Source of the DNA: an uncultured Roseovarius sp.
Lineage (GTDB): Bacteria; Pseudomonadota; Alphaproteobacteria; Rhodobacterales; Rhodobacteraceae
DNA: 64,000 nucleotides
Reading direction: 5' to 3'
NCBI RefSeq assembly: GCF_913057115.1
Contig: NZ_CAJXNN010000001.1
Coordinates: 150,441-214,440 of the forward strand
Below, in pieces: positions 37,906-47,978 of this stretch. Made by a program: the position numbers and the translations under genes. The notes under the pieces were generated by a model. The model was not told the DNA's origin, did not search any database, and saw nothing but the letters and a program-made list of their open reading frames with translations. Every line of letters starts with the position of its first letter. Position 1 is the first letter of the stretch.

Positions 37906-37985
37906 TTCGTACGACTCGTACGAAGGGTTTTGGCGACCCCCTGATTTTCGTACGAAAATGGGCAGGTAAGCGTACGAGTCGTACG
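37906..37985. repeat. CGTACG palindrome array, copy A
   Basis: Three palindromes: TTCGTACGA-C-TCGTACGAA (37906-37924), ATTTTCGTACGAAAAT (37944-37959) and CGTACGA-G-TCGTACG (37971-37985). Their centres are 36.5 and 26.5 bp apart. The same three, in mirror order with the same spacings, lie at 47898-47978. Located between rsmB and the heparinase-fold gene. Confidence 0.9.
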
Positions 37986-38096
37986 AAAATCCTGCCTCCC
38001 TAGGCAAAGGGACAGATTCCAGCGGTGACTTGCCGCCTGCCTCGCGGTATAGTCCCGGCAAAACGGCGCCGGAAAGAGCGTTCAGAGGCAAGGCAT

Positions 38097-39848
38097 ATGT
38101 CACACCCGGAAAACCTGTCTGCGCGGGTCTCGCGCATCCTTGATCGTATCGAAGCCAAGCGCGCCACGCTCTCGCGCCCGGCCACGGGGTTTACCTATAA
38201 TCCCGATCCTCGCACCATCGGCAGCTTTGCCCGAGGCAGACAGCTTTGCGCCGGTAACTTCTTGTTTTCCGGTCATCTTCTGCAAGAGCCGGAGACCAAT
38301 ATCTGGGATTTGAACGCGCCCGATATCGACTATGCCCAAGCCCTGCACGGCTTTGGCTGGCTTGATGATCTGGCCGCCGTGGGCGATCTTCCGGCCCGCA
38401 CCCGGGCACAGGATTGGCTTTGGACTTGGATCACCCGTTTCGGCCCCGGCCGCGGCCCAGGCTGGACCCCCAACCTCACAGGCCGCCGCTTGATCCGCTG
38501 GATTTCACATGCGCTTTTCTTGTTGCAAACCCGTGACCGCGATGCGTCGGACGCTTTCTATAAGTCCTTGGCACAACAAACAATTTTCCTTTCTCGCCGA
38601 TGGAAGGGCGCGCATCCTGGCCTGCCCAGATTCGAAGCATTGACCGGCCTTATCTACGCCGGTCTCTCTCTTGACGGAATGGAAACCCATGTCGAGCCAG
38701 CGCTGCGCGCGCTCTCGCATGAATGTAAAACACAGATCGACGAGGAAGGCGGCATTCCGACCCGCAACCCCGAGGAATTGCTGGAAGTTTTTACCCTGCT
38801 GACATGGTCGGCCATGGCCCTTAGCGAAGCCGGAAAGCCTGCCAGCGATTCGCATTGGGCTGCGATCGAACGCATCGCGCCCACCTTGCGTACCCTCCGG
38901 CACTCCGATGGCGGTCTCGCCCGGTTCCATGGCGGCGGGCGTGGGCTCGAAGGACGTCTGGACACCGCCCTTGCCACAAGCGGTGTTAAAGGTCGAAAAT
39001 CTAACGGGCTATCAATGGGTTATGCACGCATCAGCGCGGGGCGCACCAGCCTGATCATTGATGCCGCGCCGCCACCGAAGGGCACAGCATCCTCAGATGC
39101 ACATGCCTCGACCCTCGCATTTGAACTAACCTCCGGCCGCCGCCCGCTCATCGTTAACTGCGGTTCCGGGGCCAGTTTCGGGCAAGACTGGCGCCGCGCG
39201 GGTCGTGCGACGCCCTCGCATTCCACGCTGATGCTCGATGGGCGCTCTAGCGCGCAATTGGGAAATAGGCGCAAAGATTTGGATTTATTGACAAAAACAC
39301 CAACGGACGTTCCCGTTCAAATGCTCAAGGCACCTGATGGACTGCGCTTCGAAGGCGGTCACAATGGCTATGTCCCGGCCTACGGCGTGACCCACGCCCG
39401 CATTCTCGACCTCACTTTCGATGGCCGCGCGGTCGCCGGAGAAGACATGCTTGCCGCACTTGCTCCGAAGGATCAGAAGCAATTTGACAAGGCAATGGAC
39501 CTCAAGCGGTTGGCAGGCATTCCGTTTGAAATCCGCTTTCACCTTCACCCCGAAGTCGACGCATCCCTCGACATGGCGGGCAGCGCCGTATCAATGGCCC
39601 TGAAGAGCGGCGAGATTTGGGTTTTTCGATGCGACGGCCGCACCAATATGTCCTTGCAATCAAGTGTTTACCTCGAAAGAACACGTCTGAAACCGCGTGC
39701 GACCAAACAGATCGTTCTATCCGGCCGCACAATGGAGTATGCGACCCGAATAAGATGGTCACTGGCCAAAGCTCAGGACACGCCGATCAGCATCCGCGAC
39801 CTCGCACAGGAAGAGCCCGAGTTTGCTCCAGTAACCGAAGACGAATGA
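38097..39848 (+). CDS. Heparinase II/III-family protein
   Basis: 583 residues. Helical (alpha/alpha toroid) N-terminal half, with [21 protein letters not shown], then a beta-sandwich C-terminal half with [30 protein letters not shown]. Such proteins often act on uronic-acid polysaccharides, but the genomic position between rsmB and purH is a conserved Rhodobacterales arrangement, and the substrate is unknown. No signal peptide is evident, unlike secreted lyases. ATG 38097 is preferred over the longer frame to 38025. Confidence 0.82.
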
Positions 39849-39879
39849 GCCAAACACAAGACCCAAGGATCTGCTGCCA

Positions 39880-41469
39880 ATGACCGATCTCGCCCCCGTG
39901 CGCCGTGCCCTGCTTTCCGTTTCCGACAAGACTGGACTGGTCGACCTTGGCCGCGCCTTGGCCGAGCGTGGTGTTGAACTCCTGTCCACCGGCGGCAGCG
40001 CGAAAACGCTTCGTGATGCTGGACTTGAGGTGCGGGATGTCGCGGAGGTCACGGGCTTTCCCGAGATGATGGACGGCCGCGTAAAGACCCTTCACCCGAT
40101 GGTACACGGAGGTCTCCTGGCACTGCGTGACAACGATGATCACGTCAAGGCCATGCAAGACCACGGAATCGGCGGTATCGACCTGTTGGTAGTCAACCTT
40201 TACCCCTTCGAGGAAACCGTTGCCAATGGCGCGGATTATGACACCTGCATTGAAAACATCGACATTGGCGGCCCTGCGATGATCCGGGCAGCTGCGAAGA
40301 ACCACGCGTTCGTCAATGTGGTCGTGGATGTCGAAGACTACCCCGTATTGCTTGAAGAACTGGCCGCCAACGAAGGGCAGACCACCTATGCGTTCCGGCA
40401 ACGTCTGGCCCTGACAGCCTATGCCCGGACCGGTGCTTATGACGCAGCTGTTTCGACATGGATGGCTGACGCTTTGGATCAATCCGCGCCTCGCCGCCGG
40501 GCTTTGGCAGGCCAGTTGGCACAAACCTTGCGGTATGGTGAAAACCCACATCAGAACGCGGCATTCTATACCGATGGTTCAGACCGTCCCGGCGTTGCCA
40601 CGGCCCAACAGCTTCAGGGCAAAGCACTCAGCTACAACAACATCAATGATACCGACGCCGCTTTCGAGCTGATCAGCGAATTCGACCCTGCGGATGGTCC
40701 GGCTTGCGCGATCATCAAACACGCAAACCCTTGCGGCGTGGCACGCGGCGAGTCTCTGCAAGAGGCCTATACCAAAGCCTTCGACTGTGATCGCACCTCT
40801 GCCTTTGGTGGGATCATCGCTCTGAACCAGCCACTGGACGGGCCAACCGCAGAAGAAATCTCGAAGATCTTTACAGAGGTTGTCATCGCCCCAGGAGCAG
40901 ATGCGGATGCCAAAGCGATTTTTGCTGCCAAGAAAAATCTGCGCCTTTTGACCACCGAAGGCCTCGCCGACCCCTCCGAGGCGGCGCTTGTGCTCAAACA
41001 GGTCTCGGGTGGTTTTCTGGTGCAAGACAAGGACAACGGTCGCCTGACCAAGGATGATTTGAAAGTCGTCACGAAACGCGCGCCGACAGAGACCGAAATG
41101 AACGACATGCTGTTCGCATGGAAGGTTGCCAAGCATGTGAAGTCAAACGCCATTGTCTATGTCAAAGACGGTGCGACAGTGGGGGTAGGGGCCGGCCAGA
41201 TGAGCCGCGTAGACAGTTGCCGCATCGCCGCGCGCAAATCACAGGACATGGCCGATACGCTTGATCTGCCCGCACCGTTGACCCAAGGCAGCGTGGTCGC
41301 GTCGGATGCATTTTTCCCCTTTGCCGATGGCCTTCTGACCGCAGCAGAAGCAGGCGCAACTGCGGTCATTCACCCCGGCGGTTCCATGCGTGATGATGAA
41401 GTTATTGCTGCAGCAGACGAGGCAGGGCTTGCCATGGTCTTGACCGGAATGCGGCATTTCCGTCACTAG
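39880..41469 (+). CDS. purH: Bifunctional AICAR transformylase/IMP cyclohydrolase
   Basis: 529 residues; performs the last two steps of IMP synthesis. The N-terminal cyclohydrolase (about 1-200: [53 protein letters not shown]) is followed by the transformylase with [27 protein letters not shown] and the Lys-His pair, ending in [11 protein letters not shown] and [13 protein letters not shown]. Lower GC at third positions than the genes before 36 kb. Confidence 0.97.
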
Positions 41470-47762: not shown

Positions 47763-47825
47763 GCTTTTTTATCCCTATCACGTTTGCGATTTTATACGCT
47801 TTTCTTGTGGCAATGTCACGCAATC

Positions 47826-47843
47826 ACCACAATAGATTGTGGT
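47826..47843. promoter_or_regulatory. Operator-like palindrome upstream of gyrB
   Basis: ACCACAAT-AG-ATTGTGGT is a perfect 8-bp inverted repeat about 65 bp before the gyrB ATG. It could be a control site, or a weak hairpin at the message 5' end. The factor is not known. Confidence 0.35.
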
Positions 47844-47897
47844 TTTATGCCGAAGTGACTCGTCCCCGCAAATCAAGGGGTTAACAGGGGGTTCGAA

Positions 47898-47978
47898 CGT
47901 ACGAGTCGTACGCAACACCTGCCGTTTTCGTACGAAATTCCGGGGGGCTGGAAAAGGTTTCGTACAAGTCGTACGAAA
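47898..47978. repeat. CGTACG palindrome array, copy B (mirror orientation)
   Basis: Palindromes CGTACGA-G-TCGTACG (47898-47912), TTTCGTACGAAA (47926-47937) and TTTCGTAC-N5-GTACGAAA (47958-47978), with centres 26.5 and 36.5 bp apart. The reverse complement aligns with copy A over its full length, including a GGCAGGT between two palindromes. It begins 5 bp after the LysE-family stop. Confidence 0.9.

Follow-up and report, generated by a model that had tools for sequence, protein, structure and literature searches.

Arrays of three GTAC-core palindromes hold their positions in Roseovarius genomes and may be binding sites of a putative chromosome-wide protein

Two arrays in one window and the element they share

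The window analysed here, a stretch of 64 kb from a Roseovarius genome, contains two intergenic arrays of palindromes built on CGTACG, which raise the question of what such arrays are and whether they belong to this locus in particular. All nine CGTACG hexamers of the window fall inside the two arrays. The total is ordinary (7.8 are expected in shuffled sequence) and the clustering is the unusual part. Array A (37904..37990, plus strand) lies in forward orientation and starts 9 nt past the stop codon (37894) of rsmB (36626..37894, plus strand; Pfam PF01189). It comprises a first outer box CGTACGACTCGTACG (37908..37922), a central box with the palindrome ATTTTCGTACGAAAAT (37944..37959, CGTACG core 37949-37954) and a second outer box CGTACGAGTCGTACG (37971..37985), all on the plus strand. 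Array B (47893..47979, minus strand) is found in reverse orientation, with a first outer box (47961..47975) that reads CGTACAAGTCGTACG on the plus strand and is one base from the consensus, a central box TTTCGTACGAAA (47926..47937, core 47929-47934) and a second outer box (47898..47912) that reads CGTACGAGTCGTACG on the plus strand. It is located 4 nt past the stop codon (at 47984) of a gene for a LysE-type translocator (47984..48652, minus strand; PF01810) and about 130 nt upstream of gyrB (45345..47762, minus strand; PF00204), the next gene downstream. In both cases, the gene boundary closest to the array is a stop codon. The box coordinates bear out the initial annotation of this DNA, which had described spacings of 36.5 then 26.5 bp in the first array and 26.5 then 36.5 bp in the second and had taken the latter for an inverted copy. 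Array A and the reverse complement of array B match at 81% over 83 columns, and the GGCAGGT linker reported for both is real.

The arrays represent one rigid element, CGTACGASTCGTACG-N26-CGTACG-N16-CGTACGASTCGTACG, whose box centres are 36.5 and 26.5 bp apart and whose outer boxes are separated by 63 bp. These distances correspond to half-turn spacings of approximately 3.5 and 2.5 helical turns and to about 6 turns in total. A profile of 167 copies, from which the limits of array A were drawn, shows that conservation stops at the edges of an element of about 86 bp. Conserved are the boxes, although their conservation in this profile is partly imposed by how the copies were selected, the box edges and, more weakly, C-run and G-run arms beside the central box, which frequently lengthen its palindrome. 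Spacer positions 17-28 carry less than 0.3 bit. In every version examined, the GTAC cores lie on one lattice. At some loci, array copies occur in tandem, 63-139 bp apart.

Copy number, placement and conservation of the arrays

Across the genome, a spacing-aware search, as proposed in the initial annotation, detected 55 copies (24 forward and 31 reverse, with up to three mismatches) and none with a control pattern. Arrays A and B are two of these 55 copies, and their flanking of the rsmB-to-gyrB segment, previously read as a special mirror pair, is therefore incidental. Local duplication or chance clustering without wider meaning, for which nothing speaks beyond the resemblance of A and B, can practically be dismissed in view of these numbers and of the positions conserved in other species. 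In the sister species (G007), 64 copies were counted on both large replicons, one of them repeating a place already counted. The density amounts to about 55-80 arrays per genome, or about one per 50 kb. At least 11 copies are present in 18 of 83 Roseovarius genomes; the other 65 have 0-4 matches, so that the function may there be dispensable, otherwise served, or carried by versions that went unrecognised. Each array version examined is species-specific, and R. litorisediminis CECT 8287, for instance, has one of its own. Scattered matches to the pattern in Mucilaginibacter, Verrucomicrobia and Desulfobulbaceae were left out of the counts, uninspected, as likely chance. A CATG-core architecture in other genera, suggested by control-pattern hits, was rejected: the listed hits are 9-bp repeats, most of which look like MSGMGG-type coding repeats, in G069, G082, G169, G431, G433, G062 and G173, and resemble chance in G285, G292 and G022. 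A phage origin was likewise discarded, as the single hit among viral contigs consists of successive GTACT/GTACC-like repeats and was put down to chance. A blastn search of plasmids with array A, a weak test given that the spacers diverge, gave no match, and no published description of these arrays was found among the literature matches listed.

The arrays prefer gene 3′ ends. In the two mapped species, 83 of 129 arrays lie at most 40 nt from a stop codon; those farther from any stop codon number 17 of 59 in this genome (G000) and 29 of 70 in the sister species. Throughout this section, counts are given in this order. Within tandem gene contexts, the array is closer to the stop than to the start in 21 of 27 and 18 of 21 cases. 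Convergent genes enclose 17 of 45 and 20 of 47 arrays, and divergent pairs 1 of 45 and 6 of 47, or 6 of 59 and 15 of 70 if the ORF-overlapping arrays dropped from the sets of 45 and 47 are kept. One array is located between rpoA and rplQ (identified by Pfam) in both species. Genes next to the arrays are presumably unrelated housekeeping genes. The arrays lie all round the chromosome and, in the sister species, on both the main replicon C1 and C2, and no bias relative to the origin or the inferred terminus was seen. On C1, arrays are found at 416, 441 and 475 kb, close to the inferred terminus (about 421 kb, opposite ParB). Among the matches listed for this replicon (61 arrays, seven of them right-half matches only), there are 5 gaps below 15 kb compared to 16.4 expected. 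On this incomplete list, the arrays are more evenly spaced than random.

Positions are largely kept between the two species. A reciprocal partner array in the sister species exists for 53 of the 59 arrays, and 46 pairs are matched on both flanks, which are 86% identical. In these 46 pairs, the boxes differ at 65 of 1656 positions (3.9%), whereas the spacers differ at 457 of 1380 (33%). At box positions free of the search pattern, differences amount to 1-11%, with 4 of 276 in the central arms, 27 of 460 at the hexamer ends and 29 of 276 in the box triplets. Since the boxes differ so much less than the spacers, including where nothing was imposed by the search, they are under purifying selection. 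Positions are also shared, on both flanks, with species of differing consensus (10 of 20 arrays in G033, 4 of 11 in G021 and 4 of 9 in G462).

Change between CGTACG and TGTACA

Besides CGTACG, arrays can be built on TGTACA, and the two hexamers rarely mix: only 6 of 181 arrays hold both, compared to 70.5 expected on shuffling. Selection for symmetry, suspected from the two arrays of the window, is borne out by this rarity together with the few box changes between orthologous arrays. The class differs in 22 of 108 two-flank comparisons, and 14 of these are full CGTACG/TGTACA differences involving eight distinct arrays of Roseovarius sp. MMSF_3281. Of 12 measurable distances to the adjacent stop codon in class-differing pairs, eight are identical. 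Some orthologous arrays have exchanged their CGTACG boxes for TGTACA throughout, mostly at an unchanged distance from the stop codon. The spacers of class-differing pairs are more diverged (47% versus 33%), and replacement by conversion could therefore also have brought about the change.

Candidate explanations and related systems

We consider it somewhat probable that the arrays act as double-stranded DNA, each being bound cooperatively by several dimers of a putative sequence-specific protein, most likely with a chromosome-wide role. Binding at the DNA level is well supported, and the arrays probably serve in organising the chromosome. Each short palindrome, CGTACG or TGTACA, would take one dimer, so that an outer box could hold two dimers side by side at 9 bp and the central box one, and the half-turn spacings would give the nucleoprotein complex a fixed geometry. 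Side-by-side dimers of ribbon-helix-helix proteins (MetJ type) would suit palindromes spaced in this way. Some 55-80 such complexes, many of them next to stop codons and remote from promoters, may act in domain organisation, segregation or coordination with division rather than in the control of single genes, and a role in segregation or division is weakened by the lack of bias relative to origin or terminus, which such a role might show. The specificity of the putative protein may drift, with the arrays of a species following in place.

Three other explanations compete with this cooperative binding. Operators made of several palindromes at fixed distances are common, and the sites could be ordinary operators of one transcription factor's regulon, as some lie upstream of genes such as gyrB and a few between divergent pairs. 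This is improbable, because many arrays are located between convergent genes without an annotated start nearby, those in tandem contexts sit by the stop, and the neighbouring genes seem functionally unrelated. To a similar degree we doubt an RNA-level 3′ element, which would be part of the neighbouring gene's transcript and serve as a terminator, a 3′-end stabiliser or a structured RNA. Proximity to stop codons, hairpin-forming palindromes and the C-run/G-run arms would fit such an element, but arrays occur in both orientations with respect to the adjacent gene (of the 59 in this genome, 17 are sense and 28 antisense, with three counting as both), and pairing deviations in the sense of that gene show no clear excess of G-U (46) over A-C (34). 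A strong terminator would also be unexpected between rpoA and rplQ, and a search of 37500-48300 against Rfam yielded nothing up to E=1. The earlier suggestion of a pair of structured RNAs is not upheld by these results, whereas those of a binding array or a dispersed palindromic element fit the genome-wide copies, the kept positions and the selection for symmetry.

Unlikely, though less so than the two preceding explanations, is a family of non-autonomous mobile elements (MITE or REPIN-like), most of which would by now be fixed after spreading to the 3′ ends of genes. Such a family would account for dispersal, copy number, species-specific consensus, 3′-end preference and the tandem copies, and the array-bearing genome G035 has a strong match to the transposase Y1_Tnp (PF01797; E 1.7e-40). 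However, Y1_Tnp, matched in 14 of 83 genomes, is not distributed as the arrays are: among the 18 genomes with at least 11 copies, 15 have no match, including this genome, the sister species and G491, while G028 has one at the cut-off and G493 one below it. Further counter-evidence comes from the reciprocal partners, from conservation that ends at the element edges with spacers diverging freely and boxes not, and from stop-codon distances mostly kept through class change. Two inverted array pairs of this genome (L316 and L317), with about 6.5 kb between the arrays of a pair, enclose unrelated DNA with only array sequence and one 32-bp stretch in common by blastn, and each matches its counterpart in the sister species (L318 and L319) over the interior; a transposon with inverted arrays as ends was ruled out for both. 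REPs are located at gene 3′ ends, and the arrays resemble REPIN/RAYT and BIME/REP systems in being short, dispersed, palindromic and near such ends. We know of neither a fixed 63-bp geometry with unrelated spacers nor an in-place class change among REPINs. REPINs are short dispersed palindromes that persist for long in the genome and are duplicated by the RAYT transposase (PMC8049555). The arrays were not assigned to this system, as spacers are not alike between copies and Y1_Tnp does not follow them.

For the preferred binding-site explanation, known systems offer partial parallels. Only a few bacteria are known to have docking sites scattered over the chromosome. With dozens of dispersed palindromes, the arrays are similar to the sites of Noc (NBS) and of E. 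coli SlmA in nucleoid occlusion; the central box, close to ATTTTCGTACGAAAAT, is one that we take to resemble NBS/parS-type palindromes, and we know of no rigid three-box geometry for NBS. About 70 NBS, a number similar to that of the arrays, are distributed round the chromosome of Bacillus subtilis, with none in the region of the terminus (PMC4331003). In contrast, Roseovarius arrays are present at the inferred terminus. An extra ParB-family paralogue common to array-bearing genomes was not apparent from counts, scores and lengths of PF02195 matches in 13 genomes. In Myxococcus xanthus, the ribbon-helix-helix nucleoid protein CdbA binds sequence-specifically to several hundred sites (569 ChIP peaks, some inside genes, with a direct-repeat site), and when it is lost, the organisation of the chromosome is affected while transcription changes little (PMC7156744). 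Unlike the Roseovarius arrays, the CdbA site is without a three-box array. Palindromic chromosomal sites for organising proteins also include parS (ParB) and matS (MatP), which lie near origin or terminus, unlike the arrays, which are distributed all round the chromosome and over C1 and C2. A check of the window and of most of the loci examined for the parS core GTTTCACGTGAAAC gave no occurrence.

More tentatively, the arrays may belong to a new chromosome-organising system of Roseovarius, in which a cooperative putative protein would use triple-palindrome docking sites every ~50 kb, its recognition sequence being rewritten at dozens of fixed sites as species diverge, with CGTACG and TGTACA specificities coexisting in one genome, Roseovarius sp. 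MMSF_3281, caught mid-switch. The arrays predict that this common marine genus has a so far undescribed protein that binds DNA. They also bear on the general question of how a protein and its dozens of sites come to change specificity jointly. As shared positions can be compared across several related species with different versions, including close relatives in which individual sites have switched in place, the evolution of a genome-wide binding system would be traceable site by site. In some other species, for example, the site after rsmB is occupied by a different version.

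Arrays in the window and in the genome

The arrays of the window consist of an outer, a central and a second outer box in rigid arrangement. In array A (37908-37985) the boxes are spaced 36.5 and then 26.5 bp from centre to centre, and in array B (47898-47975) the order is mirrored, in agreement with the initial annotation, which had rightly described the two as inverted copies of each other (81% identity across 83 columns). All nine occurrences of CGTACG in the window fall within these arrays. The genome of origin (G000; 3.44 Mb assembly, 76 contigs) contains 55 copies of CGTACGASTCGTACG-N26-CGTACG-N16-CGTACGASTCGTACG with up to three mismatches over 36 specified positions, 34 of them without mismatches, and a reversed control pattern gave no match in the same search. 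A looser GTAC-core pattern gave a count of 68, which may include second readings of one place. Since the outer box alone matched 120 times (up to one mismatch) and the 55 arrays hold 110 boxes, solitary boxes are rare. Among 60 genomes searched, the strict pattern matched only in G000, in the sister species G007 (64 matches, one of which repeats a place already counted) and in G014 (two matches, both with three mismatches). In public genomes, Roseovarius contributed 77 of the 80 matches listed for the exact GTAC-core pattern, which identifies Roseovarius as the genus concerned. Among the papers listed in searches of the open-access PMC literature, none describes these arrays.

Inverted pairs, 5.7-6.6 kb apart, were also seen at G000:C35:19461-26024 and G000:C46:10940-17477 and at their G007 counterparts; the interiors of the two G000 pairs are unrelated to each other and each is conserved in G007. 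At loci L186, L198 and L164, the junction of a 458-aa and a 260-aa gene, two overlapping arrays have one outer box in common. Outer and central boxes thereby alternate there (box-mid-box-mid-box) with a period of 63 bp, and one half of this run is nearer to the TGTACA class and the other is CGTACG in G000 and G007; Roseovarius sp. MMSF_3281 (MMSF) shows the same layout.

Placement along the chromosome and relative to genes

The distribution was examined on the large replicon C1 of G007 (2.89 Mb), where 53 arrays lie 54.5 kb apart on average. Only 3 gaps are shorter than 15 kb versus 12.5 expected (P 0.0002), and the gap CV is 0.77 versus 0.97 expected (P 0.03). Adding eight arrays, namely the rsmB array and seven found by the right-half pattern, gives 5 such gaps versus 16.4 expected (none of 10,000 shuffles was as low) and a CV of 0.74 (P 0.009); these tests cover the arrays listed (at least 61 exist on C1), with tandem copies counted once. 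The largest gap between arrays is 239 kb; the series of arrays is not interrupted at the origin (about 1.865 Mb, placed by ParB) or opposite to it. Relative to the replichores, 30 arrays point one way and 23 the other.

According to ORFs from a GC-frame script, by which some gene contexts may be wrong, 17 of 59 arrays in G000 have a plus-strand stop codon at most 40 nt upstream and 28 a minus-strand stop at most 40 nt downstream, with 3 arrays showing both and 17 showing neither; in G007 the numbers are 19 and 29 of 70 (7 both, 29 neither). In tandem contexts arrays sat closer to the stop than to the following start in 21 of 27 (G000) and 18 of 21 cases (G007), with median distances of 6-7 nt to the stop versus 72-78 nt to the start, in a test of 45 of the 59 and 47 of the 70 arrays which left out those that overlap a called ORF or have no neighbour. 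Judged from translations, the adjacent genes have unrelated housekeeping functions, and among them are what we take to be argG, aroB, hemE, metK and a phoB-like regulator; the genes of the window were confirmed by Pfam. One array in G000 and G007 is flanked by rpoA and rplQ (Pfam), and an array also lies 3′ of rpoA in MMSF and G033. An array placed between rpoA and rplQ speaks against its being a strong terminator.

Selection on the boxes, class switching and a putative binding protein

In 167 CGTACG-class copies, chosen by their GTAC cores so that part of the conservation is imposed, conservation drops about 4 bp beyond the outermost boxes. The information content is 1.5-2 bits at hexamer positions and below 0.3 bit at spacer positions 17-28, and the C-run and G-run arms flanking the central box are more weakly conserved. 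Among the fetched arrays, 53 of the 59 in G000 could be paired reciprocally with a G007 array by one flank or both. In 46 orthologous pairs of these genomes, matched on both flanks, 65 of 1656 box positions (3.9%) and 457 of 1380 spacer positions (33%) differ, at a flank identity of 86%. Differences between G000 and MMSF (27 pairs) amount to 133/972 in boxes and 307/810 in spacers, and between G007 and MMSF (35 pairs) to 161/1260 and 406/1050. At positions free of the search pattern, G000 and G007 differ in 4 of 276 central-arm (1.4%), 27 of 460 hexamer-end (5.9%) and 29 of 276 box-triplet positions (10.5%). In the comparisons with MMSF the values are 7-8%, 27-29% and 29-31%, with 38-39% in the spacer; hexamer ends and triplets come near spacer divergence here because of class change.

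Boxes agree within an array: both hexamers occur in 6 of 181 arrays versus 70.5 expected when boxes are permuted among arrays (the lowest of 2000 shuffles gave 60), where orthologous arrays are non-independent and 103 of 905 boxes with neither hexamer were not scored as mixing. TGTACA-class and mixed arrays number 14 and 5 among 52 in hand from MMSF, 3 and 1 among 59 in G000, and 4 and 2 among 70 in G007. The class was the same in 86 of 108 two-flank comparisons and different in 22, of which 8 involve an array scored as mixed and 14 set CGTACG against TGTACA, the latter representing 8 distinct MMSF arrays, several of them set against G000 as well as G007. Class change may reflect replacement by conversion, as spacers are more diverged in class-differing pairs (47% versus 33%). 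Where distances to the adjacent stop codon could be compared, 8 of 12 were identical in class-differing pairs and 45 of 65 in the others.

The symmetry and fixed spacing of the arrays, their placement irrespective of gene orientation, class coherence and the lack of a clear G-U bias among pairing deviations (G-U 46 versus A-C 34) indicate that the arrays are a DNA-level site for a putative cooperative dimeric protein. From their even spread, from the housekeeping genes beside them and from their remoteness from promoters we infer a chromosome-wide role. Searches for ParB-family proteins and Y1 transposases yielded no candidate binder. Comparisons with known systems draw in part on PMC4331003, PMC8049555 and PMC7156744.

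Versions across Roseovarius and the family

The GTAC-core pattern matches 11 of 84 Roseovarius genomes. The right-half pattern, which with one mismatch allowed recovers 46 of 59 arrays in G000, 57 of 70 in G007 and all 71 arrays of other versions in hand, matches 24 of 83, with at least 11 hits in 18 genomes and 0 to 4 in the other 65; its control gave at most 3 per genome in the same 83.

The consensus differs by species among those examined, for instance GTCCATCATGGACGC...CGTACAAAACCCGCGTACACTTCGTACGTTTCGTAC in G033 and GTACGGGATGGACACAAAT...CGTCCCAAACGCGCGTAGGTTTCGTACGGATCGTAC in G021. GTAC-like cores occupy a single lattice with offsets 0, 9, 41, 54, 63 and 72; the search pattern dictates 41, 63 and 72, except in G479. 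Occupancy varies: G461 has cores at 9, 41, 54, 63 and 72 (3/3 loci), and the left box is absent in G028 (4 loci) and in 4 of 5 loci of G003. Array L356 of G003 has three additional GTAC cores (offsets 14, 23 and 32), which extend the 9-bp phasing to the central core.

At rsmB, a CGTACG version is present in G000 and G491 and a TGTACA version in G007, the G491 array being identical in sequence to that of MMSF_3281, so that G491 and MMSF_3281 are treated as one; G033 and G021 each have their own version, and G479 has three cores spaced like offsets 9, 41 and 72. No array was seen by eye at the remaining 24 of 30 rsmB loci. At G497:C1:1953652-1954900, rsmB is split or frameshifted, its match falling into two parts that differ in frame.

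Positions are partly shared with G000, G007 or MMSF, with partners sought among arrays in hand and some one-flank matches weak. Both flanks match for 10 of 20 fetched arrays in G033 (orientation conserved; a single flank matches in 3 more), 4 of 11 in G021 (5 more), 4 of 9 in G462 (1 more), 3 of 13 loci in R. litorisediminis (4 more; this set overlaps that of G462) and 2 of 15 in G014 (5 more); 1 of 3 arrays of record OX638333 also matches. The others gave no partner among the arrays in hand.

Among 393 other genomes in a search of the family, 13 match, none with more than 3 hits, and in two of these, G280 (L369, L370) and G378 (L371, L372), the hits resemble related GTAC arrays of other spacing. 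Together with G131 (L373), these genomes of other Rhodobacteraceae genera have one or two GTAC arrays each, which show 9-bp phasing with a different left-side spacing and are possibly related elements. Long 9-bp repeats at G069:C4:141536-142109, and similar ones in G082, G169, G433, G173 and G062, mostly appear to encode MSGMGG-type glycine/methionine tracts.
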